Assembly: GCA_021323945.1 (NCBI GenBank)
Contig: JAJPKA010000014.1
Span: 248,001 to 312,000, forward strand
From: Pseudomonadota bacterium
GTDB lineage: Bacteria; Desulfobacterota; Binatia; Binatales; Binataceae
Length of the DNA: 64,000 bases
Reading direction: 5' to 3'
The translations under genes were made by a program, and so were the position numbers. Positions within the stretch are counted from its first letter, which is position 1; every line of letters starts with the position of its first letter. Positions 9,076-48,005 of the stretch are shown in pieces. The notes beneath the pieces were generated by a model, which worked only from the letters and a program-made list of their open reading frames with translations, had not been told where the DNA came from and ran no database searches.

Positions 9076-9085
9076 CAGCGTAGCG

Positions 9086-10600: not shown

Positions 10601-10606
10601 GCGACG

Positions 10607-11917: not shown

Positions 11918-11924
11918 TTCAGGC

Positions 11925-14436: not shown

Positions 14437-14548
14437 GACGCTGAAAAGGGGAGAACGGGACCAAGCAGCGTCAAAACCCAAGGAGCGAACCAAGCAAGAA
14501 CTTCTCAACGTGATGTCGAGAGGTCAGTACCATTCGAGGAATCAGTAG
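14420..14548 (+). CDS. Possible small basic protein, 42 residues
   Basis: An ATG inside the end of the acyltransferase gene opens a 42-codon frame that ends six bases before the aminotransferase ATG. It fills an otherwise empty 117-base gap in a tightly packed operon. The product begins MTMTTETLKRGERD, is rich in K/R/E/Q and ends QYHSRNQ, with no hydrophobic segment or known motif. No strong ribosome-binding site is visible, so translation would depend on coupling. It may be chance. Confidence 0.3.
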   Translation: MTMTTETLKRGERDQAASKPKERTKQELLNVMSRGQYHSRNQ

Positions 14549-14553
14549 CGGAA

Positions 14554-18773: not shown

Positions 18774-18779
18774 GCGAGT

Positions 18780-23977: not shown

Positions 23978-24925
23978 TCAGATTGGTTTAGCTGGCTGTG
24001 AACGAGAAGGACCTTGATCTCGGCCTGACGAGCTTGCTCCAAGCAACCAACGCACGGCGGAGCGCAATCCTCTTTTGGCTGCAAATGCCGCTGGCAACCA
24101 TCGGTAAGCACCCATTATTTTGAGATGGAATTCGAGCAGCCAGTCGGATGGGTCGACGCGGACGCGGCCGATGGCGAACGCGTCGAACTGCGAATGGGTG
24201 ACGTATGGCAATCCGGTGAAAACCCGCTGATAGCCGGTTTCGTAGCATAGTCGAATCAGCCGGTCGTTGGATTGGCTCAGAGGAAAGGCGAAGAGCACCA
24301 CCTCCTGCTTGAGCAGATCCGACAGCAGCCGACGGGATTCCCGCAACTCGTAAAGTGCCTCTGCTTCGCTAAGCCTTGTCAGCGCGCAGTGTGTTAGACT
24401 GTGCGAGCCAACAGTGACACCTCGAGCGACGAGAGATCGGAGCTGCTGTTCAGAAATCAGTGATTCTGCTGAATCATCTTCGAGTTTCTGACCCAAGCGC
24501 CCGGCGACCGCGAATAGCGTGACCGGGATCCGCCGCCGCTCGAGCTCGGGGAAGGCAATTTCAGCAAAACTTTGCCACCCATCATCAAAGGTTACCGCGA
24601 CACTGTGAGCGTTGCGGGGAAGGGGTTCCTGACGATCGGCCCGAATGGGATGGGCCCATTTGCGCAGGTGATCGAGTTGGCGCGCGAATCGCTCCCGTTC
24701 GTGCGGGTCAACTCGATGGTAATAGATGACGGTGGCCGTGCCAGCGCGGCCGATTCGCGCCAGCCTCAGCAGAAACCTCACCGTTTCGAAAACACTCCAG
24801 AAGCCAAGACTCAGGACCAGCTTAACAACTCGTAACGACTGTTTTCGGACGGTCAGGCTCGCCCCTCTCGTGCTCCTTGGTTGGCTCGCTGAACCAGGCT
24901 GTGCTTCCGCTGCGCCATTTTTCAT
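23978..24925 (-). CDS. Polysaccharide deacetylase (NodB family)
   Basis: A 315-residue protein with an N-terminal membrane segment (about residues 30-55, VVKLVLSLGFWSVFETVRFLL) and a NodB domain. The domain starts at VIYYHRVDPHERERFARQL. The catalytic/metal motif is AVTFDDGWQSF (about residues 107-117), the histidine pair is in TVGSHSLTHCAL, and LFAFPLSQSNDR corresponds to motif 3. It would deacetylate the exported polymer at the membrane surface, or act on a lipid-linked precursor. Its ATG overlaps the stop of the FkbH-like gene (ATGA), so the two are coupled. It is not a close copy of the deacetylase at 19.6 kb, which lacks a membrane segment. Confidence 0.9.
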   Translation of the reverse strand: MKNGAAEAQPGSASQPRSTRGASLTVRKQSLRVVKLVLSLGFWSVFETVRFLLRLARIGRAGTATVIYYHRVDPHERERFARQLDHLRKWAHPIRADRQEPLPRNAHSVAVTFDDGWQSFAEIAFPELERRRIPVTLFAVAGRLGQKLEDDSAESLISEQQLRSLVARGVTVGSHSLTHCALTRLSEAEALYELRESRRLLSDLLKQEVVLFAFPLSQSNDRLIRLCYETGYQRVFTGLPYVTHSQFDAFAIGRVRVDPSDWLLEFHLKIMGAYRWLPAAFAAKRGLRSAVRWLLGASSSGRDQGPSRSQPAKPI

Positions 24926-28935: not shown

Positions 28936-29769
28936 TGTTTGACCCCTTGTATCACCCAAGCCGTCTTGAACTGGTGTCTAGCCGCGCTGTTCCCTTTGAC
29001 AGTTTCCAGCATCAGGACACTCACGGATAATCGACATTACTTTTCGCTACACTGTCCTCAGTGGGATAAATCTCCTTCGTAGCAGAGAAAATATATTCTG
29101 TGGCGGTGACGGCCAGCCGAGATCGAAACCAAGGATTTGGCCTGCTCATCGCGCCTGTAGGTACCTCCGTTCCTTGTGAATAGCCATTTATCCGCGCGGA
29201 TACATTCCAGTTAGAACTGGTAGGCATAGCAGCTGAAGAGGTGACATTGTCATCCCCTTCCTGGGTCGATTAGTGAGTCGAGAGGAAGCGATGAAATTTG
29301 AAAGCTCAGTATATCGAGATGACTGGCCAGACGCTTTACATGGTTATCACAAATACCTCTAGAGCACGGTAGTCGCGTTGCTGAATTATGAGTTGCAGAG
29401 GGTAGTGAGTAGTTTCATTAGGCCGCAGGGATGGATCTCGAGAGATGGTGCTCTGAAAAAATTTTCAATAATCGTACGGCGGGATCTGAACTCCTGCGAT
29501 CCTGAGCACAAATAAGAGCGTAAGTGCAGCAGGCCGTTGCTAACCAAAAGCAATGAAAATGTTGAGGGCTGGTAATACCCGCGGTTGAGGGCCTAACAGC
29601 GGAAAGGACCGTCTCCCAACAAAGGCCGCAGGGCTCCGCCCGGTGGAACGGGGCGAAGAACGCAGCTTAGTTGCGGCGGTCTTAAAATGTTGGCAAGCGA
29701 AAGTTGGATGTACCTAACGGAGTGAGCGTGCTAAGGAGTGTCGGCTGGTCGCCTCTTGTCGGCACACTG
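28936..29769. other. Intergenic stretch with a possible decayed ORF
   Basis: About 830 bases between the beta-helix and GT4 genes. A minus-strand frame at 29021-29227 (68 codons) reads as plausible protein (NWNVSARINGYSQG, PNPWFRSRLAV) but has no ribosome-binding site and a stop just upstream; it may be a gene remnant. The segment 29580-29700 is GC-rich with short inverted segments (GGGCTCCGCCC, GGAACGGGGCG) that could fold, but it matches no RNA family I know. Confidence 0.3.
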
Positions 29770-30999
29770 TTAGCCGGATTCGGGGGCCAAAGTTCCCGTT
29801 GGGCTGCCACTTAGCAGGTCCGCGTAAAAGGCGGTTAACTTGCTTTTTTCCAGCTCCCAGGTATAGCTCGAGATAAGGGTTCTGCCCGCTGCGATTCGGC
29901 GAATTGCTGCGCCGCGATCATTCCAGACGTGCAGTATCTTTGCGGCCATATCCTCACTGCTGCCAGGCTCAAAGTAAAAGATAGCATCCTCGGGTATATA
30001 GCGTACCAGGGTTTCAGTACGGCTCGCGATAACAGGTAGACCTTGGGACATATATTCGAGAATCTTGTTTGAGAAGTACAGCGCGCCGAAGATGCCGCCG
30101 GCGTGAGTGGAGATTCCAATATCGGCATCGGCCATTATGGCAGGTATTTCCTCGACATTGACTGTGTCGAGGAATTCGACTCGGCCCGCTACTCCTAACT
30201 CTGCGGCGAGACGCCGAACATCGTCTACCCTGTTGCCTTCGCCGACGATTCTTAGCCGCAGGCCTGGAATACTTTTTGAAGCGATCGCCAACGCACGTAC
30301 GGCTATATCCAGTCTGTAATGGTCGGTGATCGTGCCGCAGTAGAGCAAAGTGGGTTGGTCGGGATGCCTGGGCCAGACCAAGAGGTTCCCATTACTGGAA
30401 AAGAAGCGCTGCTCCGGGAAGTTATGAACTATAAACAGTTTATCAGACGGTACACCCTTGCTTTGAAGGTTTTCCCGCATGGACTCGCTGACGGATATAA
30501 CTTTGTTGGCGAGCTGGCAGCTAATTCTTTGCTGCCAATTCAAAATTCGAGTGACTAATCCCGCGTGGCGATATCCGTTTGCTTCGTAAAGCTCAGCCAT
30601 CGGATCGTGAACATCAAGAACCAACTTTGCGCCGGTCCATTTCGGCAACAGTCCAGCGAGAACCAGCAGATCAGGCATATTATGGATATGAACGATCTGG
30701 AAGGGTCGGGAAAAGTGTAGTTGGGCGAGTTTAACCGCCCCTAATCCCGTTAACAGCGCGTATTCGAACACGTAACGCAACTGGCTGCCTCGGCGGCGCT
30801 CGAGTGGAAGCCGGTGAACGAAAACTCCGTTGATGGTTTCCTTTCGTGGCTGCCTGCTTTTCTTTCCGGCTTCAGTGCGGCGCAGACAAATGACGTGGAC
30901 CTCGTAGCCAGCATTAACCAGCGCTTCGGCTTCACGGCGCACCCGTACATCGGTGGGATAGTAGCCGTGAAATAGCATTCCCACCCTCCTATCTCGCAT
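29770..30999 (-). CDS. GT4-family glycosyltransferase
   Basis: About 409 residues, GT-B fold. The N-terminal domain begins RRVGMLFHGYYPTDVRVRREAEAL and includes VHIHNMPDLLVLAGLLPKWTG and VLDVHDPMAELY. The C-terminal donor-binding domain shows LLYCGTITDHYRLDIAVRAL, LRIVGEG, VEFLDTV and the EX7E-like region ISTHAGGIFGALYFSNKILEYMSQGLPVIAS. It would add a sugar to the lipid-linked repeat unit in the cytoplasm. The ATG at 30999 overlaps the end of the 2-epimerase gene by eleven bases; another in-frame ATG at 30981 has a perfect AGGAGG six bases upstream, but would shorten the first beta strand. The frame is open to 31032. Sugar specificity is unknown. Confidence 0.9.
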   Translation of the reverse strand: MRDRRVGMLFHGYYPTDVRVRREAEALVNAGYEVHVICLRRTEAGKKSRQPRKETINGVFVHRLPLERRRGSQLRYVFEYALLTGLGAVKLAQLHFSRPFQIVHIHNMPDLLVLAGLLPKWTGAKLVLDVHDPMAELYEANGYRHAGLVTRILNWQQRISCQLANKVISVSESMRENLQSKGVPSDKLFIVHNFPEQRFFSSNGNLLVWPRHPDQPTLLYCGTITDHYRLDIAVRALAIASKSIPGLRLRIVGEGNRVDDVRRLAAELGVAGRVEFLDTVNVEEIPAIMADADIGISTHAGGIFGALYFSNKILEYMSQGLPVIASRTETLVRYIPEDAIFYFEPGSSEDMAAKILHVWNDRGAAIRRIAAGRTLISSYTWELEKSKLTAFYADLLSGSPTGTLAPESG

Positions 31000-32059
31000 T
31001 CGAAGAGCTCCCGAACCGTTGTTCAAGGTCATCGAGGATCTTGACGTGTGCGCGGCCGTCGCCGAAAAGTTCGCGATAAGGACCAGTCGGCTCGAAGGTG
31101 TTGATTAGAAACGCGATTCGTTCCGGATCAGGACCCGTCAAAACCTTCCATCCCACTTGAGATATTTCAGGAAACCACGACAACTCGATGAGCACGATAC
31201 AGGGTTTCTTCAACAGATAAGCTTCTCGCCGTACACCTCCCGAATCTGTCAACACCTTGTTGGCCCCGGCTGCCAATCGGATAAAGTCCACATATCCTAA
31301 AGGCGGGATGATCTCGATCTTGGACCTCGCCAGTCTGGGCATCAGGTCAAATTGTTCCAGCTGTTTACGGGTCCGCGGATGAGCCGGGAAGACGATCCGT
31401 TGATCAGAGCGAAGCAGACCTTCCACAATCGCCGCCAGCCGGTCGCGCACCATTATATTTTCCTGGCGGTGAAGCGTCAGTACCATATAGTCCCCCCTGA
31501 CAACTGGTAACTCCAGTCTACTCAGAGTATAGAGTAGCGCGTCCTTCATCAGATCTCCGGAGAGAACTATGCGGCTTGCGTCATGGCCTTCGGCTTTGAG
31601 GTTGCGAACGTGTGTCTCAGTGCAACAATAATTCACTTCCGCCAGCGTATCTGCGACTCGCCGGTTAATCTCCTCGGGATTGTAACGATCGGCCGTTCGG
31701 ATTCCGGCTTCCACGTGCGCAAACGGAATCCTGAGCTTGGAAGCGGCAACCGCCGCCGATAAAGTCGTATTGACGTCTCCGTAAGCGAGGACGAAGTCGG
31801 GCCTGTCTTCGCTCAGGAGCCGTCCGAGTTGTTGCATAGCGCCAGCGGTGAACGAGACGTTATCGTTGTTTTCGACCGTCAGCAAATAGTGCGGAGCGGG
31901 CAGGGCAAAATCCTCAAAAAACACATCCGACATGTCGCGGTCGTAGTGCTGTCTTGTATGAACTATGATTTCCTGAAAACCGCGTCGGCTCGACTCCATG
32001 TGGATCAGAAATTCTTTGACGAAATTAGGCCGCGTCCCAACAATCGAGTAGAACCTCAT
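30989..32059 (-). CDS. wecB: UDP-N-acetylglucosamine 2-epimerase (non-hydrolysing)
   Basis: A 356-residue cytoplasmic epimerase interconverting UDP-GlcNAc and UDP-ManNAc, or, if WbpI-like, the 2,3-diacetamido uronic acid analogue. Visible motifs are VGTRPNFVK at the N-terminus, AYGDVNTTLSA, HVEAGIRTADRYNPEEINRR with the catalytic acidic residues, LTLHRQEN with the histidine, and LTDSGGVRREAYLLKKP binding UDP. Length is typical. The ATG has AGAGG about ten bases upstream. With WbpB/D/E-like genes in the operon at 12.7-15.8 kb, a WbpI-type role is reasonable, but WecB and WbpI cannot be told apart by eye. It lies upstream of the overlapping GT4 gene. Confidence 0.93.
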   Translation of the reverse strand: MRFYSIVGTRPNFVKEFLIHMESSRRGFQEIIVHTRQHYDRDMSDVFFEDFALPAPHYLLTVENNDNVSFTAGAMQQLGRLLSEDRPDFVLAYGDVNTTLSAAVAASKLRIPFAHVEAGIRTADRYNPEEINRRVADTLAEVNYCCTETHVRNLKAEGHDASRIVLSGDLMKDALLYTLSRLELPVVRGDYMVLTLHRQENIMVRDRLAAIVEGLLRSDQRIVFPAHPRTRKQLEQFDLMPRLARSKIEIIPPLGYVDFIRLAAGANKVLTDSGGVRREAYLLKKPCIVLIELSWFPEISQVGWKVLTGPDPERIAFLINTFEPTGPYRELFGDGRAHVKILDDLEQRFGSSSNAR

Positions 32060-32615: not shown

Positions 32616-32783
32616 TTACCGATACTGATGTTGAGCAGTCGATGGTGAATCCGGCGGCCGCTGGAAATTTCCCCGCGCGGCAAGAACACCGATCACAACC
32701 ATCGCAACCAAGGCGACTGCGGCCAGTAACCTCTGAGTGCGGCGTATTTTTTTAAGCTCAGACGTGCTGGGATGCTTTGCCAT
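32616..32783 (-). CDS. Small single-pass membrane protein, 55 residues
   Basis: An ATG inside the 3' end of the FemAB/GNAT-like gene opens a 55-codon frame, overlapping that gene by 26 bases. The product has a basic N-terminus (LKKIRRTQR), one clear membrane helix (LLAAVALVAMVVIGVLAA, about residues 19-36) and a polar proline-rich tail. By the positive-inside rule the N-terminus is cytoplasmic. No family is recognised. The overlap with the gene upstream, the clean hydrophobic profile and the possible terminator just downstream support a real coupled gene. It could be a small subunit or regulator of the exopolysaccharide machinery; this is speculation. Confidence 0.55.
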   Translation of the reverse strand: MAKHPSTSELKKIRRTQRLLAAVALVAMVVIGVLAARGNFQRPPDSPSTAQHQYR

Positions 32784-33774
32784 GTTTAAGATCAATTGCT
32801 CCGCGGGATACAGTCTCAGATGAAACCCTCGCCGCGGGTCTTAAGTCCGAAGTGTTCGCTTGCCGTCTCGCTTGGAGCTGGCGCTCGTACGCTGCGATCG
32901 AATCCTTTATGGTTTGCCGTATCTCTTCGAGCGACATGTTGCGCCACCGTTCTCCCGCTCGTTCCATTTGAATCCTGCGTTGCCAGCGCTTTGTGTGTGA
33001 CATCAGAGTAAATGCAAGGCGCCATACGGTGGGAGCTCCAGCTAATAAATAATTATGCTCCCGAATTATAGTTCCGCCGAACTGCATTTTGAATCTATTG
33101 ACCCCGATACTATCCTCGACTTGACCGAGACTGCCAAAATCGTAAGTAGTCAGTCCTTCGTCGCGATATTTCTCGAGTTCGTACCAGTGCAAATAAACGT
33201 TAACAATTCCTGCCAGCCGGGCCGTCGCCGGGTCATCAAAGCGCCGATTAGCCGAATCGTGAAGGCGCACGATTCCCACATCTCGGTCAACTAGGTTGAG
33301 ATGGCCACAGATAGGCTGGCCGTCGAGATAGGCCATCATCAAATCAGCGTTGGGAAAGTAGCTGTATTCGCGGGCCTCCGACACGGGGCTTGTCTGTAAC
33401 GGTTTGCCCCGCGCGAAATCGTTGTAGAGCTTCACGAATTGGGGAACCAATCCGTCAACATCCGGGCCTCCGCTGTAGCGGCGGATCATCAGCCGGCCGC
33501 CGAGTTTTTCGGCCTTGTGAATGCGAATCCTGGCGTTTTCAATCAGGTCTTTATAGATCGCGCCTAGAGGGCGCCTGAGGTCTATCAAAAGCGTTAGGCT
33601 GAGAGTGTGGGTAATGATACATCGGCCGTGTTCAAGGTCTGTGCTGGCGAATGCGACACGCGCGTAATGGCTGAAAGGGAGGTTTTCAGCCAGTTCTTTT
33701 AAGGTCGTCTCGGTGGGCCAGTAGACGAGCTGGTAGGGAATGATACCCTTGAGCTTGTTGCGGATAATAATCAT
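32758..33774 (-). CDS. FemAB/GNAT-like acyltransferase
   Basis: About 338 residues with a GNAT/FemAB (Acetyltransf_6-type) fold. The region around SLTLLIDLRRPLGAIYKDLIENARIRIHKAEKLGG resembles the FemAB substrate-side segment. ADLMMAYLDGQPICGHLNLVDRDVGIVRLHDSANRRF and TTYDFGSLGQVEDSIGVNRFKMQFGGTIIREHNYLL form the second acyl-CoA-binding lobe. Such proteins occur in PEP-CTERM/exopolysaccharide loci and may add amino acids or acyl groups to a glycan. The ATG at 33774 is chosen; the frame opens at a TTG at 33831, but no good ribosome-binding site fits either. An AGGAGG lies too far upstream of the ATG. The C-terminus is charged and overlaps the small membrane protein gene. Confidence 0.8.
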   Translation of the reverse strand: MIIIRNKLKGIIPYQLVYWPTETTLKELAENLPFSHYARVAFASTDLEHGRCIITHTLSLTLLIDLRRPLGAIYKDLIENARIRIHKAEKLGGRLMIRRYSGGPDVDGLVPQFVKLYNDFARGKPLQTSPVSEAREYSYFPNADLMMAYLDGQPICGHLNLVDRDVGIVRLHDSANRRFDDPATARLAGIVNVYLHWYELEKYRDEGLTTYDFGSLGQVEDSIGVNRFKMQFGGTIIREHNYLLAGAPTVWRLAFTLMSHTKRWQRRIQMERAGERWRNMSLEEIRQTIKDSIAAYERQLQARRQANTSDLRPAARVSSETVSRGAIDLKHGKASQHV

Positions 33775-34270
33775 TTCAATTTTCCCGTCCGGGCTACTTT
33801 TGACCCGACCTCCTCGGTAACACTCTTGCAAGCACGAAATGAGCCGTACTGCTGATTCAATAAGTCCTGTTAATCGTTCTTTGGGCGAAAATCTTCACAG
33901 ATTGCTGCACTGTCTCCCGCTGTTGGGGTATCAGGCGCTCCGTAGCCGCATGGCACGCCCGCTTGGTGCTCGAGACAGATAGAAATTGACGCTGTCGGTT
34001 GCAATACGTCCTGTAAATTGTAAATGTTGCAACCAGCGGTCGGAAGCGTTGCTTGAGTGAGAGTTCGGAATTAAGTCTCGATTCCCGCATTTCAAGCACC
34101 CAGTTAGTGATGCAAGCAAATTGAGGGCTTAATGTAGCAAGACAGATGACTTCTTTAGGGTTATTTTAAAGAATTATTTTCGCTCGTGCCTACAGGCCTA
34201 AGCTTCCGAAAAAGTTTGACAAACAAAACGAGCTCCACTTTAAGGCGTTAAGTCCAAGCTGGCACAAATA
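33775..34270. promoter_or_regulatory. Divergent promoter region between acyltransferase and Wzy-like genes
   Basis: About 496 AT-rich bases with divergent genes on both sides and no recognisable ORF. It holds the putative promoter of the Wzy-like gene at 34216-34244 (listed separately). Short minus-strand ORFs (33857-34119) have no ribosome-binding site and no motifs. Confidence 0.45.
34216..34244 (+). promoter_or_regulatory. Putative sigma70-type promoter for the Wzy-like gene
   Basis: TTGACA is followed after exactly 17 bases by TTTAAG, four of six matches to the -10 consensus. It would start transcription near 34251, twenty bases before the Wzy-like TTG start. Confidence 0.45.
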
Positions 34271-35800
34271 TTGGTCCGTCGTAAGAACGTGTACGGTCGA
34301 CCAGGCAATCTTTTAGGCGCTATCGAATCGGTCGATGAGGACGGAACGGTACCACACTTGCCGCGAGTCCTGCTCTTCGCCGTTGCCGCGCTTGTCGCCC
34401 TAGTTATTTTGTGCGTCATCAATCGCCCAACCGGCCCGGTGACTCTCGCGATCCTGGGGGCTACGGCCATTATTCCCATATGGAAGTTGTGGTCCTTAGC
34501 GAAGCGTGATCTCCCCTGGCTGGCATTCGCCCTGATTTTGATTCAGCTCCTTGATGGATTGTTTTTTCTGACCGAGCAGGTGCGGCCGATAATCACCTAT
34601 GGACTTACATTCCTCTTCTGTCTACCGGCGCTTCCCACCCTGTGGGCGGCATGGAAAGCGCACAGCTCGACTTTTCGTCTGTACTTGCTGTTCTGCCTCT
34701 GGTGCCTGATTTCAGTCTTCTATTCGATCGCTCCCGAGTTTTCGCTTAGTCGACTGGTGCGAAATGTTTTCCTGTTTGCGGCGATAACCGCATGCTCAAT
34801 CGCGGCGCGCAAGCTCGGCGGGCCCAAGCCTATCATGCGTGCGTTGATGGCGGCTGCAATCGCGGTTACCGCAATCACGTGCGCCTCGATGCTCCTGCCG
34901 CACAGCCTGACGTGGTCGACCGGTGACGACGATGCGACCATCCAAAACATGGCAACGGTCGACAATGGCGATGCTTTGCCCAGATTTCGCGGTTTATTCG
35001 GCAATCCCAATGAAGTTGGCGAGCTCGCTGGTCTGACTGCTGGCTTAATTCTCTCCTATTTGGCATTTGCGGACAAAAAGCAGCGAATTGCTCTAATCCT
35101 GATAGCCCTCATCGCGGTAGCACTGGCTGTTATTGCCGATTCCCGCTCCGACTTGATCGGTCTGGCGATCGGCTCAACGCTCTACCTCTGCTGGAGATAC
35201 GGCCTTCGCGGCATTGTCCTTATAGGAGCTTTAGGTACAGTTGGCCTTTTGTCACTCAAACTATTGGGTGAGAGTGCGGCCTCCTATATCTGGCGTGGCG
35301 ATGTATGGAGTCTGACCGGCAGAACTGATATCTGGCAGTTCGCGCTTCGAGAAATTGCGGGCCGACCACTGACAGGCTATGGCTGGGCGGTAGGGGGCGC
35401 AATCTTTAGCAGCAAGTATTTTCCGATTTGGTTCGGACCCTGGGATCTGGGACCCCACAGCTCCATTCACAGCGGTTATTTGACTTGCATGGTTGGCGTC
35501 GGCGTGCCGGCGACTCTTTTTTGGCTCTTCATCATTTTGCGACCCTGGGTGGCTCTGTTTCGCCAAGCAGAAGATCCGTGGGCTCTCAAGCGCAGTTTTT
35601 TCTTCCTGGCGGTTCCAATGCTCATTATCAACTTGGATGAATCGATGATTACCGATTGCGCCGGTGCCGCCGGGTTTCTGTTTATGATGCTTTGGGCTTT
35701 GGCGGAACAGTACCGGCTGGTAGTGATTGCCAATGATCGATTGGCCCGCCAGCGAGCCCTCAAGAACTCACCACCTGCGGTCGCGGCCCTGGTCTCCTAG
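34271..35800 (+). CDS. Wzy/O-antigen ligase-like membrane protein
   Basis: A 509-residue polytopic membrane protein with about 11-12 helices. The central long periplasmic loop contains the Wzy_C/O-antigen-ligase pattern: RFRGLFGNPNEVGELAGLTAGLILSYLAF, then VIADSRSDLIGLAIGS and later GRPLTGYGWAVGG and GPHSSIHSGYLTCMVGVGVPATLFWL. The conserved H in the last motif is expected for this family. It would polymerise the flipped repeat units, or ligate glycan to an acceptor. The start is uncertain: TTG at 34271 fits the promoter but lacks a ribosome-binding site; GTG at 34289 is an alternative. It converges on the first transglycosylase-like gene with 31 bases between stops. Confidence 0.88.
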   Translation: MVRRKNVYGRPGNLLGAIESVDEDGTVPHLPRVLLFAVAALVALVILCVINRPTGPVTLAILGATAIIPIWKLWSLAKRDLPWLAFALILIQLLDGLFFLTEQVRPIITYGLTFLFCLPALPTLWAAWKAHSSTFRLYLLFCLWCLISVFYSIAPEFSLSRLVRNVFLFAAITACSIAARKLGGPKPIMRALMAAAIAVTAITCASMLLPHSLTWSTGDDDATIQNMATVDNGDALPRFRGLFGNPNEVGELAGLTAGLILSYLAFADKKQRIALILIALIAVALAVIADSRSDLIGLAIGSTLYLCWRYGLRGIVLIGALGTVGLLSLKLLGESAASYIWRGDVWSLTGRTDIWQFALREIAGRPLTGYGWAVGGAIFSSKYFPIWFGPWDLGPHSSIHSGYLTCMVGVGVPATLFWLFIILRPWVALFRQAEDPWALKRSFFFLAVPMLIINLDESMITDCAGAAGFLFMMLWALAEQYRLVVIANDRLARQRALKNSPPAVAALVS

Positions 35801-35831: not shown

Positions 35832-36821
35832 TCAGTAGGGCACCGCTATTCCGTCGAATTCACGACTGACCCACAGACGGTTCGTCAAGGTGTCAATAAA
35901 CGCAGCCGTGTAGGGGCCGGCCGAATTTGTATGGCCCGAATACCACGACTGAAGCGCAATTCCGATATCACCGCCTGGCGCCATGTCCGAGGATAGTCCG
36001 TGAAAGATAGAGTAGATACGCCCCGCAAAAAAATCGGCATTAAAGCAGCTGTTCTCGCGGGCCAGCATCGCGCCCAATCCACCGAAGCCAGGGTACCCGT
36101 GATGTGGGCGGTCACGGTCGGGAACTTGCATTAATCCGCTCGACCGGCCGTTGTCGCCGATACCCGTCTGATCCCAATGGCTTTCATTTTCAGCTTCGGC
36201 GTACATGAGTAGAGGATTGATGCCCCATTTGTTTGCCGCCCACTGCAGAACCTCTGCAGTAGTCGGGTGCGCCAAGGGACAGGCACCATCGATGCGGTCG
36301 GCTACTGGCTGCCAACTCCGCCCCCAGCCGCTCACATAATCGGCATAGAAGCTCCGTAACTGACGGAGATAGTCTTCCGGGTTGGTAGAGGCGATATAAT
36401 TGAAGTAGTTGTTGGCAGCGGCTATCGCCGGGCCGCTTGGGCCTAGCTCGGGTTTGGATTTCTGAGTCGGTTTTATGAAGGAGACGGCTTGAAGATCATC
36501 GAGCAACGGTCCGCCAATTAGTGGGTAACCTGCCAAGCTTCCACCAGGTGCGTCGTAATGGCCGAAATGAGCCGGATTGGTATCCGCCCAAGGAATGCCC
36601 GCAGCTGAACCTGTCAGCTCGGGTATCGTTGCCCCTCGCTGGACCGCGACCAATCGAACCGCTTCTGGGTCCACTCGAGCCCAACCGATGGCCGCATTTA
36701 AACTGGTCAGCTGTGAGAGCAAACGGTGTCTGAGTCTGACTACTGATTCATTATCGCGGAATTTAAGAAGCCCGAAAGCGATAAGAGCAAAAGCCAATAC
36801 AGAGATTATTATCCATCGCAT
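35832..36821 (-). CDS. Membrane-anchored lytic-transglycosylase-like paralogue A (no Ig domain)
   Basis: About 329 residues from the ATG at 36821, which opens directly on a membrane helix (residues 2-19); the frame extends to 36938 but the extra 39 residues look non-coding. The conserved module (residues 63-329) begins ATIPELTGSAAGIPWADTNP. It contains VLQWAANKWGINPLLMYAEAENESHWDQTG, with E213 placed like the catalytic glutamate of SLT/goose-type lysozymes, and SSGLMQVPDRDRPHHGYPGFGG. Two cysteines (DGACP, ENSCFNAD) are shared with the paralogues and may form a disulfide. Related to the next two genes. It likely cleaves peptidoglycan or the exopolymer near the membrane; the fold is inferred from motif pattern only. 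Confidence 0.75.
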   Translation of the reverse strand: MRWIIISVLAFALIAFGLLKFRDNESVVRLRHRLLSQLTSLNAAIGWARVDPEAVRLVAVQRGATIPELTGSAAGIPWADTNPAHFGHYDAPGGSLAGYPLIGGPLLDDLQAVSFIKPTQKSKPELGPSGPAIAAANNYFNYIASTNPEDYLRQLRSFYADYVSGWGRSWQPVADRIDGACPLAHPTTAEVLQWAANKWGINPLLMYAEAENESHWDQTGIGDNGRSSGLMQVPDRDRPHHGYPGFGGLGAMLARENSCFNADFFAGRIYSIFHGLSSDMAPGGDIGIALQSWYSGHTNSAGPYTAAFIDTLTNRLWVSREFDGIAVPY

Positions 36822-36968
36822 AAAGCATACAGAACCGAGAGATTCGAGCGCATGCCACTCCTTCGTGTTGCAAGTTAGTCTAGCCTGGGAAGAAGGCACG
36901 AACCATCCCACGAACCTGGCGACGGCCTGAGCGCGCACTCTTCGCTCACGCCACCTATTACCTTAATG

Positions 36969-38399
36969 TTAATACGGGACGAAAGCACCGCCGAAGGCGC
37001 GGGTCTTCCAAGTTTGGTTGCTGAGGGCGTAAGTCCATGCGCTGACATATAGGGGTGAATTGTCATCCCAAGACCCAACCGCCGCGAGAATATTTCCATC
37101 TCCCCAGCTGGTTTTGCCCAGTCCATGGAAGACTAAGTATATCCAGGCAGCATAGAAGTCCGCATTGAAGCAGGTATTCTCGCGCGCCAGCATCGAACCA
37201 GCGCCAGAGAAGCCAGGGAAAGCATGATACGGACGCGTATTCCGGTCAGCAACCTGCAGCACGCCGCTCGAACCGCCGTTATCCCCGAGGGCGGTTTGAT
37301 CCCAATGGCTTTCGATTGTGGCAGTAGCATAGAGTAACAGTGGATTAATACCCCATTTATTCGCTGCCCACTGGAGAACTTCGGCCGTAGTTGGACTCGC
37401 CATCGGACAGGCGCCATCGACTCGATCGATTATGGATTTCCACCTTGTCCAGGTATAGGCCGCATAAAAGCCGTCGCTAGATTGAAGCTGATACAGATAG
37501 TTAGTCGGATCATGCGATGCGATGTAATTGAAATAGTTATTTGCGGCTTGATTGGCCGCACCATTGATTCCAGTCTCGATCTGCGATTGCTGCGTTGGCA
37601 CCACAAAGGATGCCGCCTCAGAGTCGTCGAGAAGTGGCCCACCAATTAATGCATATCCATTTACGGCACCGCCGGTTGCGTCATATTGGCCATAATGAGC
37701 CGGATTAGTATCGGCGCCCGGAATACTTGCTGCTGAACCCGTTAAACCGGGGATTGTTGCGCCTGGCGTGACAGACGAGCTCGTGGCTGCGTTGGCAACC
37801 GTAACCGTGGCTGACGCGCTGCCGAGCAGCACATGTGACGGTGAGAAGGCGCTGGCCGAAACTACATGACTGCCGTTGGGGTACTGAGTCGTGTCCCACT
37901 GCCATGTCGATGGTGGCGTTGCAGCCTTAAAAATGCCGTCAACGTAGAAGTCCGACCAGGACACATTAGTTTGCGTAGCAATCGCAACATTGACAACTCC
38001 CGATACTGCGGTGCCATTCTGGGGCGTAACCAGGGTTATCTCGGGGCCATTGTCAACGTTAACCGTTAGAGCGGAAGAGCCAAGTACAGTCTTGTTTCGG
38101 CCGAATGCGGTAACTGAGATCGTATGGCTACCGTTTTTCACACTGCTTGAATTCCAGTCGATAATGTATGGCGGGGACGAAGCGAGAAATACTCCGTCAA
38201 TATAAAAGTCAACCCACACCACTCCTGGCCCGACAGCGCACGCTATTGGTGTGGGGCCCGAAACCGTGCTGCCATTGACCGGTGAAGTCAGGTTGACGGC
38301 AATCGAAGCCGGCGCTCGAGTCGCAGTACAAGTTATTAGTACTAACGCGCTGCCCAAGCATAAGACCGATCGTTGCCAGCGAAGTACTCCATTGTTCAT
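36969..38399 (-). CDS. Secreted lytic-transglycosylase-like paralogue B (two Ig-like domains)
   Basis: About 476 residues from the ATG at 38399, which has AGGGGGGAAGG upstream; an ATG 14 codons earlier is less likely. A signal peptide (residues 8-31) is followed by two Ig-like/Big-type repeats at about 33-116 and 118-202. Each has VWVDFYIDG or SWSDFYVDG and KNGSHTISVTAF or PNGSHVVSASAF. Then comes the catalytic-like module (about 213-476), starting GATIPGLTGSAASIPGADTNPAH, with E363 in YATATIESHWDQTALGD and SSGVLQVADRNTRPYHAFPGF. Length difference from the paralogues comes only from the N-terminal domains. The Ig-like domains may bind polysaccharide or extend the enzyme from the surface. Confidence 0.8.
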   Translation of the reverse strand: MNNGVLRWQRSVLCLGSALVLITCTATRAPASIAVNLTSPVNGSTVSGPTPIACAVGPGVVWVDFYIDGVFLASSPPYIIDWNSSSVKNGSHTISVTAFGRNKTVLGSSALTVNVDNGPEITLVTPQNGTAVSGVVNVAIATQTNVSWSDFYVDGIFKAATPPSTWQWDTTQYPNGSHVVSASAFSPSHVLLGSASATVTVANAATSSSVTPGATIPGLTGSAASIPGADTNPAHYGQYDATGGAVNGYALIGGPLLDDSEAASFVVPTQQSQIETGINGAANQAANNYFNYIASHDPTNYLYQLQSSDGFYAAYTWTRWKSIIDRVDGACPMASPTTAEVLQWAANKWGINPLLLYATATIESHWDQTALGDNGGSSGVLQVADRNTRPYHAFPGFSGAGSMLARENTCFNADFYAAWIYLVFHGLGKTSWGDGNILAAVGSWDDNSPLYVSAWTYALSNQTWKTRAFGGAFVPY

Positions 38400-38956
38400 G
38401 CACCTTCCCCCCTCAACTCGTGTGATATCGCAAGAGCGCAAATCCGTCTCCCACAGGCAGAGAAAGACCCAGGACCCGTAGGTTCGAGTGTCAGGAATCG
38501 GGAGAGGCAGGTACGGTGAGGTACTAAGCAGGAAAGAATCAGAAATGCAGCGCGGTCCCCCTAGCCTGTCGGAACCGAGCGCAAGAACTGCGCCAGCGAT
38601 CGTGGCGAGGAAGATGGGGGTATATGCGAACTAATGCGAGAAAAGATTGTTCGCGTTGTGAATTAAAACCTGGCGGACGTCGCGAAATGTTGCGACCCTA
38701 GATTAGGGATGTTTCATTCAAGGACGCTGTCCGAGAACTCGCTTCGCCGGCGCGCTGGAACCCTTCGAGAATCCCTACAGGCGATCAGCGACTCAGGGTT
38801 GGGCTCAGACGGGTTTGGCAACCCCTTTGGACGCCGCAGTCATCATAGCTGAGGGTTTTCGAAAATTCTCCTGCACGAGATGAAACTAACCAGCTGCCTT
38901 AAGTATTGCCACACGCACGGTTTGCAGCCGTGCGTGTGGCAGCTTCCGACTCTGTC
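38400..38956. other. Intergenic region between paralogues B and C
   Basis: About 557 bases, minus-strand leader of paralogue B and downstream region of paralogue C. It contains the perfect hairpin at 38907-38941 (listed separately). No convincing ORF; a 13-codon frame and similar fragments were dismissed. It presumably holds a promoter for paralogue B. Confidence 0.4.
38907..38941 (-). terminator. Perfect hairpin, probable terminator of paralogue C
   Basis: TGCCACACGCACGG pairs exactly with CCGTGCGTGTGGCA (14 base pairs, seven-base loop) just 15 bases past the stop of paralogue C. On the minus strand the sequence that follows is not a T run, so it may be a Rho-independent terminator of weak type or an RNA-stabilising stem. 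Confidence 0.6.
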
Positions 38957-40162
38957 TTAATAGGGGACGAATGCACCGCCAAACGCCCGTGTTTCCCAGG
39001 ACTGGTTCAGCAAGGCGCTATTGAAGGCCGGCACGTAAATAGAGACACCCGGATCCCAAAGCTGAACTGAGCCGAGAATGTTATTTTGGCCCGCTCCTCC
39101 GCCGATGAGCCCATGGAAAGCGGAATAGATGAAAGCGGCGTAGAAATCCGCGTTGAAACACGAACTTTCGCGCGCCAACATTGAACCCCCTCCAGAAAAC
39201 CCGGGGTATGCGTGGTTCGGGGAAACCGAAGTATCGCGATCAGCAATCTGAAATAAACCGGCCGAGCCCCCATAGTCACCAACGCCGGTCTGATCCCAGT
39301 GACTCTCAATCGTCGCGTCGGCATACAGCAACAACGGATTGATCCCCCATTTGTTTGCGGCCCACTGGAGTACCTCTGCAGTGGTGGGATTGGCAATTGG
39401 GCAGGCACCGTCTACCCGATAAACCTCGGCCTTCCAGCTCGCCCCCCAACCATAGTTATAGGCACTGTGAAATGCCTGGAGTTGGTACAAGTAGTTACTC
39501 GGATTGGTCGATGCAATATAGTTAAAATAGTTGTTAGCCACCGCATTAGCGTAGCCTGTACCAGCGCTATTCAATTCGATGTTGGACTTTTGCGTCTTTT
39601 TTACAAAGGAGGCTGCCTGCCAATCACTCAGTAGCGGTCCTCCGATCAGCGAATAGCCATCTGCGCTGCCGCCCGATGCCCAGTAGTGTCCGTAGTCGGC
39701 TGGGTTAGTGTCTGCACCGGGAATCGTAGAGCCCGAACCAGTTAGACCCGAGATTGTCGCGCCCGGCGTGACTTGCCAGGACGAAGAGCTGGATGAAGAG
39801 CTATTGGAGTTGTTACTGACGTAGACGGTCACTGAAGAGGAGCCAAGAACGGCATGATTAGCAGCAAAAGCAGTTACCGAAATCGTATGAGTACCGTTCT
39901 TCACGTTTTGGGAATTCCAGTCGATGATGTATGGAGGCGAGCAGGTTAGATAAATACCATCGATATAGAAATCTACCCATACCACGCCCGAGCTAATCGC
40001 CGCGGCGACTGTCACATTGCCGGAAACTGTCGCACCGTTTGCTGGCGAAGTCAGATTGACTGCGGTCGAACTGTACGAAGAGTCCGGCTTGAAAAAGAGC
40101 ATTGTGAGAGTTAAATAAATTACGTAGGCACACGAATACCGTCGGAAAAAACGCGCTTTCAT
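38957..40162 (-). CDS. Secreted lytic-transglycosylase-like paralogue C (one Ig-like domain)
   Basis: A 401-residue protein with an N-terminal hydrophobic segment (about 10-30, AYVIYLTLTMLFF) and one Ig-like domain (about 34-116, VWVDFYIDGIYLTCSPPYIIDWN). A serine-rich linker follows (118-129). The catalytic-like module spans about 131-401: GATISGLTGSGSTIPGADTNPADYGHYWASGG, E286 in YADATIESHWDQTGVGD, and SAGLFQIADRDTSVSPNHAYPGFSG. GGGGGAAAA lies before the ATG. Shared residues with paralogues A and B cover nearly the whole module, so these genes arose by duplication. A probable terminator follows the stop. Confidence 0.8.
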   Translation of the reverse strand: MKARFFRRYSCAYVIYLTLTMLFFKPDSSYSSTAVNLTSPANGATVSGNVTVAAAISSGVVWVDFYIDGIYLTCSPPYIIDWNSQNVKNGTHTISVTAFAANHAVLGSSSVTVYVSNNSNSSSSSSSSWQVTPGATISGLTGSGSTIPGADTNPADYGHYWASGGSADGYSLIGGPLLSDWQAASFVKKTQKSNIELNSAGTGYANAVANNYFNYIASTNPSNYLYQLQAFHSAYNYGWGASWKAEVYRVDGACPIANPTTAEVLQWAANKWGINPLLLYADATIESHWDQTGVGDYGGSAGLFQIADRDTSVSPNHAYPGFSGGGSMLARESSCFNADFYAAFIYSAFHGLIGGGAGQNNILGSVQLWDPGVSIYVPAFNSALLNQSWETRAFGGAFVPY

Positions 40163-43507: not shown

Positions 43508-45109
43508 TTGCGTTACGGCTTTGTCATCGATCATAACCGATGTATCGGATGCCACGCGTGTACTCTGGCGTGCAAGGAAGAGCACAGCGTCCCGCTGGGT
43601 GTCTTTCGCACCTGGGTCAAATACATTGAAAAAGGTGCCTTTCCGCATGCCAGCCGCCATTTTGGCGTGATGCGCTGCAATCACTGCGATGACGCACCAT
43701 GCGTCGCGATCTGTCCAACCAGCGCGCTCTTTCGTCGTCAAGACGGCATAGTCGATTTCGACAGCAGCCGCTGTATTGGCTGCAAGTCTTGCATGCAAGC
43801 ATGCCCTTATGACGCTCTCTACCTTGACCCGGGTACCCATACAGCGGCGAAATGTAATTTTTGCGCCCATCGGATTGAGATGAATCTGGAACCTGCCTGC
43901 GTGGTGGTCTGTCCGGTGCAGGCTATTATCGCCGGTGACATTGATGACCCGGAAAGTCGTATCAGTGAGGTTATAGCTTCGGCCAAGGTCACCGCTCGCA
44001 AACCTCATAAGGGTACTCGTCCGAAACTGTTTTATGTCGGGATTGAAGGCGATCTGCTTCAGCCGTCGATGACAGAGGCGGCGTCGAACTATATGTTCGC
44101 GGAGCGTCATTCGGGGTCGCGCCACGAGGACTTTCCGCGGTGGGCTCGGCCGGCCGATCATGGTTCACAATCGGTCCCAACCGACGGTGATCGCCCAAAT
44201 GTTGGTGCGGGGCGCGTCGTCTATGACGTGGCGCATCCGCAACCTTGGGCGTGGATACCAGCGTTCTACTTGTGGACCAAGTCCATCGGCGCCGGCATCC
44301 TCATGGTGGCGGCGCTGCTCCTGGCTCTTGCGGCACCGTTCGACTCCGGTCTCAGGTTAATCGTGCCTGCTACTGCGCTACTATTCACAGGCATTACGGC
44401 ATTACTGCTGATCGCTGATCTGCATCGACCGGACCGTTTCTACTATATATTGTTGAAGCCCAACCCGCGCTCCTGGCTTGTCGTCGGAACCTGGATACTA
44501 ATTATCTATTCTATCCTTGCCGCGATCTGGTTGATCTATGGTTTCGGTCGCGACGATTACATGCCCTCGCTGCTCGTTGTGATGGCGGCGATCGCGGCGG
44601 GATGTTCCGCCGGCTATTCAGCCTTTCTCTTCGCTCAGGCAAAAGGGCGCGACCTCTGGCAAAGTCCTCTTTTTCTGTGGCACCTGTTTATCCAGGCGAT
44701 GCTGGCGGGGGCGGCGACGATGATAATCGCAGCTGTGTTAGACGGCTATCCCCACATTCGCGCAATCGGGGATGGCGGACTCGAGATCGTGCGTTTGAGC
44801 AATTTTGTCCTGGTGACGGCGATTGCGTTGAGCACCCTTATGATCCTCGGTGAGCTCTCGATAACACCCTTTAGCGTTGACGTGCAATATGCAGTCGACG
44901 TCATATGGCGAGGCCGCTTGCGCGCACTATTTTGGCTAGGTGTTGTTGGTCTCGGCACCATCCTACCTGTAGGGCTGCTTTTTTATACGATTGCGACCGC
45001 TGCGACTTCTCGTCTACTTGAGATATCGGATGCAGTAGCGCCTCTCATCGGTCTGTTGCTTTTTGAAAAGGTTTGGATTGACGCCGGCCAGGCTCCGCCC
45101 CTTAGCTGA
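43508..45109 (+). CDS. Fused four-cluster ferredoxin and NrfD-type membrane subunit
   Basis: A 533-residue fusion. The N-terminus carries 16 cysteines in four sets: C12/15/18/22, C57/60/65/69, C89/92/95/99 and C116/119/131/135. This is the pattern of DmsB/NrfC/PsrB-type proteins with four [4Fe-4S] clusters. After a linker (about 140-235), residues 240-525 have about eight membrane helices of the NrfD/PsrC type (WIPAFYLWTKSIGAGILMVAALL, LADLHRPDRFYYILLKPNPRSWLVVGTWI). The unit exchanges electrons between the quinone pool and the molybdoenzyme downstream. The two subunits are usually separate genes, so the fusion is notable. The start is a TTG matching the conserved N-terminus; no strong ribosome-binding site. 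70 bases separate it from the catalytic subunit. Confidence 0.92.
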   Translation: MRYGFVIDHNRCIGCHACTLACKEEHSVPLGVFRTWVKYIEKGAFPHASRHFGVMRCNHCDDAPCVAICPTSALFRRQDGIVDFDSSRCIGCKSCMQACPYDALYLDPGTHTAAKCNFCAHRIEMNLEPACVVVCPVQAIIAGDIDDPESRISEVIASAKVTARKPHKGTRPKLFYVGIEGDLLQPSMTEAASNYMFAERHSGSRHEDFPRWARPADHGSQSVPTDGDRPNVGAGRVVYDVAHPQPWAWIPAFYLWTKSIGAGILMVAALLLALAAPFDSGLRLIVPATALLFTGITALLLIADLHRPDRFYYILLKPNPRSWLVVGTWILIIYSILAAIWLIYGFGRDDYMPSLLVVMAAIAAGCSAGYSAFLFAQAKGRDLWQSPLFLWHLFIQAMLAGAATMIIAAVLDGYPHIRAIGDGGLEIVRLSNFVLVTAIALSTLMILGELSITPFSVDVQYAVDVIWRGRLRALFWLGVVGLGTILPVGLLFYTIATAATSRLLEISDAVAPLIGLLLFEKVWIDAGQAPPLS

Positions 45110-45179
45110 CCACCTCTGCGAGGCCTAGCCGTTCGTGCGAAAAGAGCGCATCGGTCCGAAAGCAGGAGGCCAGAGCTCA

Positions 45180-48005
45180 GTGAACGAAAGCTTAACACCA
45201 CTGAATCCAGCGGCCCTGGGCCTCGAAGCGCCTGCCAGAGGGCTCGCCAGTTTTCCACCGCCCGAGCGTTGGGACAACTGGACCGAATTCGATCCCGCTG
45301 AATGGCCGCGCCAGGTAAAAAAACGATATCGGTTGATTCCCACCATCTGCTTCAACTGCGAAGCCGCTTGCGGGTTGCTGGCCTATGTCGATTTGGACAG
45401 CGGCCGGATTCGAAAATTCGAAGGCAATCCCGCGCATCCGGGCAGCCGAGGACGGAACTGCGCCAAGGGGCCGGCTACCCTCAACCAGGTGAACGACCCC
45501 GAGCGCATCCTCTATCCGTTGAGACGCGCTGGTAAGCGAGGCGAGGGCAGGTGGGAGCGAGTGAGTTGGGAGGAGGTGCTGGACGATCTGGCGACCAGAA
45601 TCCGCGCCGCACTGATTGATGGTCGCCGAAACGAAATCATCTATCATGTGGGCCGTCCTGGCCACGAGCTCATCTACAACCAGCGTGTTCTGCATTCCTG
45701 GGGAATCGACGGCCACAACAGCCACACCAATATCTGCTCGGCTGGAGCCAGAACCGGTTACGCCTTCTGGCAGGGGATTGACCGGCCATCACCTGATTAC
45801 GCAAACGCACGTTTCATCCTGCTGCTGAGCTCCCATCTTGAGGCGGGACATTACTTCAACCCCCATGCTCAGCGCATTATCGAGGCCAAAACCAGGGGAG
45901 CCAAGCTGTGCGTAATTGATACTCGTCTCTCCAACACCGCGGCGCGCGCTGACTATTGGTTGTCGACCTGGCCCGGGAGCGAGGCCGCGGTGTTGCTCGC
46001 GATGTGTCATGTAATACTCGAGGAGCGGCTATACGATAGCGAGTTTCTGCGACGATGGGTGAACTGGCAGCAATATCTGGCTAGCGAGCATCCCGACCGT
46101 CCGAGCAGCTTTCCAACCTTCGTCGAAGTTCTGCGAGAGCTCTACTCACGATTTACGCCTGAGTTCGCGGCGCAGGAATCCGGCGCCGACAGCGGCGTAA
46201 TCGTGCAGGTTGCGCGCGAAATAGGTCGTGCCGGCAAAGCATTCGCAGCCCACATCTGGCGCAACGCGGCGGCAGGAAACCTTGGTGGGTGGCAGGTTGC
46301 AAGAACGCTGGAATTTTTGTCGGTGCTCGTCGGCGCGATCGCGACACCTGGTGGAACCGCACCGGCGGTGGCCAGCAAATTTATTCCCACGCCACCCGGC
46401 ATGCCTCCGGCACCGGAAGTATGGAACGAAATAATCTGGCCCCGTGAATATCCGCTGGCATTCTTCGAGATGAGTTTTCTGCTGCCGCATTTCCTCAAAG
46501 CAGGGCGTGGCAAGCTCGCCGCCTACTTCACTCGTGTTTACAATCCAGTCTGGACTAATCCCGACGGGATGAGTTGGATCGAAGTTCTCCTAGACGAGAC
46601 CAAGATCGAACGTCACGCTTGTTTGACTCCCGTTTGGAGCGAGACAGCCTGGTTCGCGGATTACGTCTTACCGATGGGGTTGGCGTCAGAACGACACGAT
46701 TTGATGAGCCAGGAAACCCATGCCGCGCGCTGGATTGGCTTTCGTCAACCAGTTCTACGCGTGGCTCAGGAAAAGGAGGGAAAACAGTTTAACTTCACCT
46801 ACGAGGCTCACCGTGCGGCCGGGCTAGGGGAAGTTTGGGAGGAAGACGAGTTTTGGATTGAGCTCTCGTGGCGCATCGATCCAAGCGGCGATCTTGGCAT
46901 CCGCCGATACTTTGAATCGCCCTATCGCGCCGGTCAAAAGCTTACGGTCGCTGAATTTTATCGTTGGATCTTCGAACACAGCGTGCCGGGATTGCCTGAG
47001 GCCGCCGCTCGCGAGGGCCTGGATCCGCTTGCTTACATGCGCAAGTACGGAGCGTTTTTGATTGAGGAAGGTACCTACCATTCGCACGAGCAGCGCCTGA
47101 GCAGCGTCCAGCTTGAAGGTGCATCCACCGATCCACAAACCGGGATCATCGTAAAGGATGGGGCCGCGGTCGGTGTCGACGTGGACGGTGTCCCATGCGT
47201 CGGTTTCCCCACGCCCTCACGTCGGCTCGAATTCTTTTCGCAGACCCTGAAGGACTGGGGATGGCCGGAATATGCGATTCCGGGTTACATCCGCAGCCAC
47301 GTTCATCCTGATTTCATCGATCGGCGCAAGGGTGAGATGGTGTTGCTGCCGACTTTTCGCTTACCGACACTGGTTCATACGCGCTCCGGCAACGCGAAGT
47401 GGCTTTGCGAGATATCGCATCGCAATCCCCTGTGGCTCCATCCTGAAGATGCCGCTCGCCTCGGTGTCACAACAGATGACCTCCTCAAAGTTAACACCGA
47501 GATTGGTTACTTTGTTGACAAGGTCTGGGTTACTGAAGCAATCCGCCCTGGAATTATAGCCTGCTCGCATCATTTAGGCCGATGGCGCCTGCAGGAGGAC
47601 CTGGGCGGGGAAAAATGGTCGACAGCGCTTGTTGACTTGCAGCAAATTGCCCCGGGGAGGTGGCGCATGCGACAAATTCACGGGATTCGGCAATTCGTGA
47701 GCCCGGACCACGATTCAAAGCGAGTTTGGTGGGAGGACGCGGGAGTGCACCAAAATCTGGCTTTTCCTGTCCAGCCAGATCCGGTCAGTGGGGCCCATTG
47801 CTGGCATCAGAAAGTCAGGGTGGAACGGGCGGGCCCGGAGGATCAATACGGCGATATCTTGGTCGATACCAACAAGGCTCACCAAGTATACAAACAATGG
47901 CTGGCAATCGCCCGGCCAGCGCCAGGCCCAGGTGGCTTGCGCCGACCTCTTTGGCTGCCCCGGGCCTATCGGCCCGCAACCTCGGCGTTCTCCTGGCGGG
48001 CTTAA
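45180..48005 (+). CDS. Molybdopterin-dependent oxidoreductase, catalytic subunit (PsrA/SoeA-like)
   Basis: About 941 residues from the GTG at 45180, which has AGGAGG ten bases upstream; the frame opens 15 codons earlier. A complex iron-sulphur molybdoenzyme. The [4Fe-4S] motif is C57/C60/C64 (TICFNCEAACG) and C94 (GRNCAKG). A candidate molybdenum-ligand Cys is C186 in SHTNICSAGARTG. Later segments match the bis-MGD family (SSHLEAGHYFNPHAQRIIEAKTRGAKLCVIDTR, MGLASERHDLMSQETHAA, TRSGNAKWLCEISHRNPLW). No twin-arginine signal is visible, so it should stay cytoplasmic, as in SoeABC sulphite dehydrogenases, unlike Psr/Nrf enzymes. Substrate candidates are sulphite, polysulfide, thiosulfate or arsenite; the sequence does not decide. 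Confidence 0.9.
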   Translation: MNESLTPLNPAALGLEAPARGLASFPPPERWDNWTEFDPAEWPRQVKKRYRLIPTICFNCEAACGLLAYVDLDSGRIRKFEGNPAHPGSRGRNCAKGPATLNQVNDPERILYPLRRAGKRGEGRWERVSWEEVLDDLATRIRAALIDGRRNEIIYHVGRPGHELIYNQRVLHSWGIDGHNSHTNICSAGARTGYAFWQGIDRPSPDYANARFILLLSSHLEAGHYFNPHAQRIIEAKTRGAKLCVIDTRLSNTAARADYWLSTWPGSEAAVLLAMCHVILEERLYDSEFLRRWVNWQQYLASEHPDRPSSFPTFVEVLRELYSRFTPEFAAQESGADSGVIVQVAREIGRAGKAFAAHIWRNAAAGNLGGWQVARTLEFLSVLVGAIATPGGTAPAVASKFIPTPPGMPPAPEVWNEIIWPREYPLAFFEMSFLLPHFLKAGRGKLAAYFTRVYNPVWTNPDGMSWIEVLLDETKIERHACLTPVWSETAWFADYVLPMGLASERHDLMSQETHAARWIGFRQPVLRVAQEKEGKQFNFTYEAHRAAGLGEVWEEDEFWIELSWRIDPSGDLGIRRYFESPYRAGQKLTVAEFYRWIFEHSVPGLPEAAAREGLDPLAYMRKYGAFLIEEGTYHSHEQRLSSVQLEGASTDPQTGIIVKDGAAVGVDVDGVPCVGFPTPSRRLEFFSQTLKDWGWPEYAIPGYIRSHVHPDFIDRRKGEMVLLPTFRLPTLVHTRSGNAKWLCEISHRNPLWLHPEDAARLGVTTDDLLKVNTEIGYFVDKVWVTEAIRPGIIACSHHLGRWRLQEDLGGEKWSTALVDLQQIAPGRWRMRQIHGIRQFVSPDHDSKRVWWEDAGVHQNLAFPVQPDPVSGAHCWHQKVRVERAGPEDQYGDILVDTNKAHQVYKQWLAIARPAPGPGGLRRPLWLPRAYRPATSAFSWRA

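Follow-up and report, generated by a model that had tools for sequence, protein, structure and literature searches.

The exopolysaccharide (EPS) locus of this Binataceae genome raises the question of why three tandem genes for secreted, lysozyme-like proteins adjoin a gene for a Wzy-like polymerase, and which glycan their products would cut. The stretch of DNA analyzed (the window) comprises 64,000 nucleotides of a 3.74-Mb Binataceae MAG (Candidatus Binatota). A Wzx/Wzy-type EPS locus spans positions 8263 to 35800 of the window and holds a complete Wza/Wzz/Wzx/Wzy set, and the three paralogues follow directly (Table 1). At scores below the respective cut-offs, the export genes are similar to those of the XrtA/PEP-CTERM type, and nine hydrophobic segments were found in the Wzy-like protein. 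The polymer is probably rich in N-acetylated amino sugars because the locus encodes deacetylases, a UDP-GlcNAc 2-epimerase, and a putative UDP-GlcNAc 3-dehydrogenase, the last being the best NCBIfam match, below cut-off, of the GFO/IDH dehydrogenase.

Table 1. Coordinates of the EPS locus, the three paralogues, and Wzy proteins with other C-terminal modules (window positions unless a locus prefix is given).
Feature	Position	Strand	Remarks
Export module: Wza-like Poly_export, Wzz-like chain-length determinant, AAA_22 ATPase with C-terminal LysM, BY-kinase-like ATPase	8263-12710	+	
Amino-sugar genes: GFO/IDH dehydrogenase, hexapeptide acyltransferase, DegT aminotransferase	12707-15768	+	
Initiating sugar transferase (Bac_transf), Wzx flippase, GT2	15772-19637	+	
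Polysaccharide deacetylase	23978-24925	-	
Secreted 602-aa protein	27151-28959	-	LnbX-N-terminal-like/beta-helix-like (weak); no Pfam match
GT4-like glycosyltransferase and UDP-GlcNAc 2-epimerase	29770-32059	-	Epimerase: WecB, over cut-off
FemAB-like GNAT protein	32758-33831	-	Divergent from Wzy
Wzy-like polymerase (PF04932)	34271-35800	+	Wzy_C 39.4 bits (cut-off, 31.7); convergent with paralogue 1, ~31 bp apart
SLT-like paralogue 1	35832-36938	-	Adjoins Wzy; membrane anchor and lysozyme-like module (35832-36635), no Ig domain
SLT-like paralogue 2	36969-38441	-	N-terminal signal-like segment, two Big_7 Ig domains, lysozyme-like module (36969-37763)
SLT-like paralogue 3	38957-40162	-	One Big_7 Ig domain, Ser-rich linker, lysozyme-like module (38957-39763)
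Glu-Ser of ESHWDQT, paralogue 3 (module E153, S154)	39302-39307	-	Aligned with catalytic E64 of MltE/E503 of Slt
Wzy with beta-helix (G004, G030) or Cys-rich (G026:C48, G028:C19) module	L088:6787-9633, L089:2193-5015, L090:3229-5157, L091:8262-10220	-, -, -, +	

Several features of the locus are recorded here as separate observations. The AAA_22 ATPase of the export module (10607-11917, plus strand) is of PEP-CTERM type, and its C-terminal LysM, a peptidoglycan-binding domain, is an unexpected companion for a cytoplasmic ATPase. The plus-strand gene at 19391-20848 was considered as a further polymerase and rejected; it has no transmembrane segment, and its sequence looks deacetylase-like (NodB type). 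This gene is conserved in these EPS loci and has no Pfam match, and its annotated start overlaps the upstream GT2 gene, with the true start probably located downstream. The pairing of a FemAB-like gene with Wzy is also seen in a genus-mate genome (G001:C4, locus L073), in which Wzy lies on a 5.4-kb contig flanked by a glycosyltransferase gene and the FemAB-like gene.

The original prediction, made from the sequence of the window, described a module of about 265 residues shared by three minus-strand genes, and the ORF coordinates, BLASTP, the quoted motifs, and the final VPY all agree with it. The C-terminal module common to the three ORFs is 264 to 268 amino acids long at 60 to 69% identity. 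Paralogues 1 and 3 are 60% identical by BLASTP (E = 7e-110), which rules out a chance resemblance, and the identities to paralogue 3 in the alignment are 69% and 62%. The N-termini differ in the way that had been described (an anchor without Ig domain, two Ig domains, and one Ig domain with a Ser-rich linker): the Pfam Big_7 matches in paralogues 2 and 3 are significant, and the N-terminus of paralogue 1 has one strong hydrophobic segment in place of an Ig domain. The Glu of the ESHWDQT motif and two cysteines (module positions 121 and 202) are kept in all three proteins in the alignment, again as predicted, with the cysteine pair present in just 10 of 47 rows of the wider family. The likely starts of paralogues 1 and 2 are the internal ATG codons at 36821 and 38399, respectively, rather than the first GTG/TTG. 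Across the three paralogues and a genus-mate copy, dN is 0.23 to 0.32 and synonymous substitutions have reached or almost reached saturation, which indicates that all three paralogues are old and have been kept by selection. The three modules are under strong purifying selection, ruling out that they are decayed copies. Four canonical SLT proteins are encoded elsewhere in the same genome, so the three paralogues are not needed as basic lytic transglycosylases.

Structure modeling identifies the module as a divergent lysozyme-superfamily domain, a known fold rather than a new one. At the sequence level, the Pfam SLT model (PF01464) scores 16.1 to 18.4 bits in the three proteins, under its curated cut-off of 21.3 bits, and matches 15 of 31 homologues at E values up to 1. 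Searches of the module against PHROGs, PDB (by sequence), and NCBIfam returned no significant match. The top PDB profile match is EtgA (E = 0.09, not significant) and the sole NCBIfam match is IagB (13 bits against a cut-off of 208); matches to surfactant protein A and to immunoglobulin chains were judged to be due to chance. An AlphaFold model of the window module, built from ten sequences, is only fair (pLDDT 57, pTM 0.70), and nearly all of its structural matches are lysozyme-superfamily enzymes, of the same families as those matched by the homologue model described next, with Z values up to 6.8, a size that can be unspecific. Modeling of a homologue (L043) gave a better result (pLDDT 77, pTM 0.82), and the leading matches are lytic transglycosylases, goose-type lysozymes, and a GH124 cellulase. 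The best Z value of this model is 9.9 (MltF), and its leading matches include 9.2 with cod g-type lysozyme (3.0 Å over 127 residues) and 8.8 with MltE (2.6 Å over 120 residues); such values can likewise be unspecific and the Foldseek E values of the module models are not significant on their own, and the weight lies on the uniform list of matches together with the active site.

The superfamily is defined by a central helix bearing a Glu and by a motif beta-hairpin whose Gln faces the cleft (PMC2976769). The predicted central helix covers residues 143 to 153 and ends in E153 in the window model, and that of the L043 model (residues 86 to 97) holds E96. Residues 127 to 254 of the window model align with residues 38 to 203 of MltE, and residues 127 to 259 align with residues 477 to 627 of Slt, ranges that set E153 on MltE E64 and Slt E503 if the helix is gap-free; E96 of L043 falls on the same two residues. 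The PDB titles name E64 and E503 as the positions mutated in the inactive variants 6ghy and 6fcq. The motif hairpin is formed in the L043 model by strands 129 to 132 and 137 to 140, which flank S132...Q137, and is not resolved in the window model; across the family, the motif keeps S/T in all 47 modules and Q in 44 of them.

The three window modules are among the 45 of 47 that keep the Glu at the catalytic position, and Asp163, ten residues further on, is invariant (47/47), a pattern that argues for catalysis. The expectation of an SLT/GH23-type fold with the conserved Glu in the active site is therefore matched in the models, in which the predicted fold is related to that of lysozyme and the Glu, kept in nearly all homologues, is placed on the active-site Glu of MltE and Slt. 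We hold it to be very likely that the lysozyme-superfamily fold and the role of this Glu as the acid are right. An alternative is that the modules are noncatalytic, glycan-binding domains of lysozyme fold whose role is to steer or retain the growing polymer at the polymerase. Given the conservation of both acidic residues this appears highly improbable, even with two substitutions that would suit it: a Gln replaces the Glu in a Wzy-fused module of G028:C25 (L085:8467-10731, minus strand), and an Asp replaces it in a free copy (L057, in G001:C163). The Gln in the fused copy suggests that catalysis may be dispensable in some fusions.

The module shares with SLT/GH23 lytic transglycosylases (MltE, MltF, MltC, and Slt) the predicted fold, a Glu-Ser at the end of the central helix, and a downstream S-x-G-x-x-Q-like hairpin motif. 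It differs from them in scoring below the Pfam gathering threshold and in carrying the extra invariant Asp ten residues past the Glu, and the paralogues differ in their Ig/linker N-termini and in the link to Wzy. The relationship to goose-type lysozyme (GH23) is distant, at 12 to 14% identity and with another N-terminal region in the module. Alignment with hhalign pairs ESHW...GD...GLFQI with ESHAGKVLKNGWGD...GLMQV (P = 0.0005, probability only 30%) and places the conserved Glu at the equivalent of Glu73 of the goose-type enzyme. In this same alignment of 30% probability, Asp163 pairs with goose Asp86 across a loop that is shorter in the module. Goose Asp97, two residues past the motif Gln, has no counterpart; the position is occupied by Ala or Pro in the window subfamily and by Lys in much of the wider family, and Asp97 is only partly conserved within GH23 (PMC2976769). 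Cod Asp90, the counterpart of goose Asp86, is implicated in catalysis in work cited in PMC3448621. The pairing of Asp163 with Asp86 hints, at the level of sequence, that the paralogues may be hydrolases rather than transglycosylases.

A profile search recovered the module family from 20 of 41 Binataceae genomes. Outside Binataceae, no member was found at E = 1e-6 in a 395-genome sample of the phylum or in 148 genomes of the class, with at most six candidates scored per genome in the phylum sample, so distant members may be missed. No relatives were detected in phage or plasmid records, and a viral_contigs scan with the window subfamily alone gave no match. The same scan with the broad family yielded a few distant relatives bearing Ig, fibronectin-like, CBM96, or RTX parts, none of them with a Wzy in the ~6 kb of sequence covered. 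In the tree, the window subfamily forms a long branch apart from the rest, including the clades with fusions. We consider these proteins a putative undescribed family of the lysozyme superfamily. Its members fall short of the curated cut-offs of SLT and NCBIfam and would therefore mostly receive the annotation of hypothetical protein.

Whether the module accompanies Wzy in other genomes, as had been anticipated, was surveyed across the 41 Binataceae genomes. It lies beside or is fused to a Wzy-like polymerase in 13 of them, and the genus-mate G001 stands apart, since none of its five module copies, on contigs that are short, was seen beside its one detected Wzy. Wzy homologues occur in 23 of the 41 genomes, and 16 have both Wzy and the module (Fisher p = 0.004), with four further genomes possessing the module and no detected Wzy. 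A module is found within 5 kb at 15 of 31 Wzy-like loci versus 0.2 expected (~75 times chance), an expectation that assumes uniform placement and leaves aside that both genes may be drawn to EPS loci generally. Of the 53 module sites in all, 34 have no detected Wzy within 5 kb, and some of these sites are on short contigs.

In five genomes, Wzy and the module form a single ORF (G026:C43, G027:C29, and G028:C25; G010:C132 and G011:C97), and the maximum likelihood tree of the module requires two independent origins of the fused state. An assembly artifact was rejected as the source of these fusions, which occur in five genomes of two genera, contain no stops, and in three cases retain the Wzy tail at the joint. 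In G034, about 30 bp separate Wzy from the module, each encoded by its own gene on the same strand. The three fusions of genus g10 retain the Wzy tail (…LxPAAAAL), which runs into a former signal peptide with an AxA-like end site, suggesting that the fused module would face the periplasm and might be released. Collectively, the fusions, the spacing in G034, and the retained tail tie the module to the polymerase itself and not just to the EPS locus. No paper on a Wzy fused to a lysozyme-like domain was found in the open-access literature, and within the reach of those searches neither the sequence family nor its covalent fusion to Wzy has been described before.

These patterns bear on the possibility that the paralogues are secreted antibacterial or scavenging muramidases or chitinases, located near the EPS locus by chance and tethered to the surface by their Ig domains. 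Such enzymes would fit with secreted copies that are Ig-bearing, variable, and tandemly duplicated, with the many family members that are far from Wzy, and with the relatives on other contigs that bear CBM96 or RTX repeats. Coincidence, however, leaves the enriched linkage to Wzy and the two origins of fusion unexplained, and we regard this explanation as improbable.

The C-terminal site of Wzy at which the lysozyme-like module sits is occupied by other modules elsewhere: a right-handed beta-helix in the Wzy proteins of G004 and G030, and a Cys-rich module in those of G026:C48 and G028:C19. The secreted 602-aa protein of the window weakly resembles both the N-terminal part of the lacto-N-biosidase LnbX and the Wzy-fused beta-helix modules of G004 and G030, and a homologue of this protein neighbors the second Wzy gene of the window genome (G000:C22). 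The case for EPS as the substrate rests chiefly on the alternation of lysozyme-like and beta-helix modules at one site of Wzy. Glycan-cutting enzymes encoded inside EPS synthesis loci are known from WceF, AlgL, PslG, and PgaB (PMC7949094, PMC8829089, and PMC5933820). WceF is a beta-helix enzyme that hydrolyzes the EPS of its own cluster (PMC7949094), and AlgL removes alginate from the periplasm during synthesis (PMC8829089). The module, with its predicted cutting activity, would resemble these four enzymes in genomic setting and differs from them in fold. We know of none of the four being fused to the polymerase itself.

Enzymes of the IagB, EtgA, and VirB1 type open the cell wall for protein secretion systems, and the paralogues could similarly act on peptidoglycan, as hydrolases or lytic transglycosylases, to make a local gap in the wall for the Wza/Wzz export machine. 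IagB and EtgA are small lysozyme-fold enzymes (specialized lytic transglycosylases) encoded with an envelope-spanning export system, they head the profile matches, the nearest solved structures are mostly peptidoglycan enzymes, and fusion to an inner-membrane protein would also fit an assembly factor. The module nevertheless scores far from IagB, the exported substrate here is a polysaccharide, and the fusion partner is the polymerase rather than Wza or Wzz. In addition, the beta-helix modules at the same place in other Wzy proteins suit polysaccharide substrates better, and three Ig-bearing or anchored copies exceed what a gap opener would need. Among the annotated proteins of the window, no secretion-system genes were seen; what these proteins include is an EPS locus. 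Local wall opening is thus rather unlikely, if more plausible than a chance neighborhood.

We favor periplasmic or secreted EPS processing over peptidoglycan cutting. On balance, the three paralogues are best read as secreted or anchored glycosidases of an undescribed lysozyme-superfamily family that cut the EPS of the adjacent Wzx/Wzy locus, and we lean toward this EPS as their substrate. The Glu of ESHWDQT would serve as the general acid, and we infer that catalysis takes place outside the inner membrane on beta-linked amino-sugar chains of the polymer. Such cutting may serve to control chain length, to remove polymer trapped in the periplasm, or to reshape the secreted matrix. Paralogue 1, held in the membrane by its anchor, would work close to the polymerase, and the Ig-bearing paralogues 2 and 3 would work at a greater distance, on either the matrix or the envelope.

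The control of polymer length in Wzy-dependent systems is usually attributed to Wzz. We tentatively raise the possibility, which we consider less probable than EPS processing as such, of a "self-trimming" polymerase: the Binataceae Wzy pairs with, and has twice been fused to, a putative hydrolase of lysozyme fold, its C-terminal slot would take exchangeable glycan-active modules (lysozyme-like, beta-helix, or Cys-rich), and length would be set by coupled synthesis and cutting and not by Wzz alone, with the fold recruited from peptidoglycan metabolism. If the polymerase itself contains a hydrolase, the length question would become testable through a single Glu, and the association suggests that exopolysaccharide has become the target of a fold known chiefly for peptidoglycan cleavage.

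Two minor observations lie outside the locus. Module relatives in IMG/VR (L042:2332-4335, L050:1909-3642, and L051:1783-3684, all on the plus strand) are joined to RTX, CBM96, or fibronectin-like parts, and the contigs that carry such relatives may be bacterial rather than viral. In the window, positions 43508 to 48005 (plus strand) encode an Fe-S/NrfD fusion protein followed by a molybdopterin oxidoreductase.
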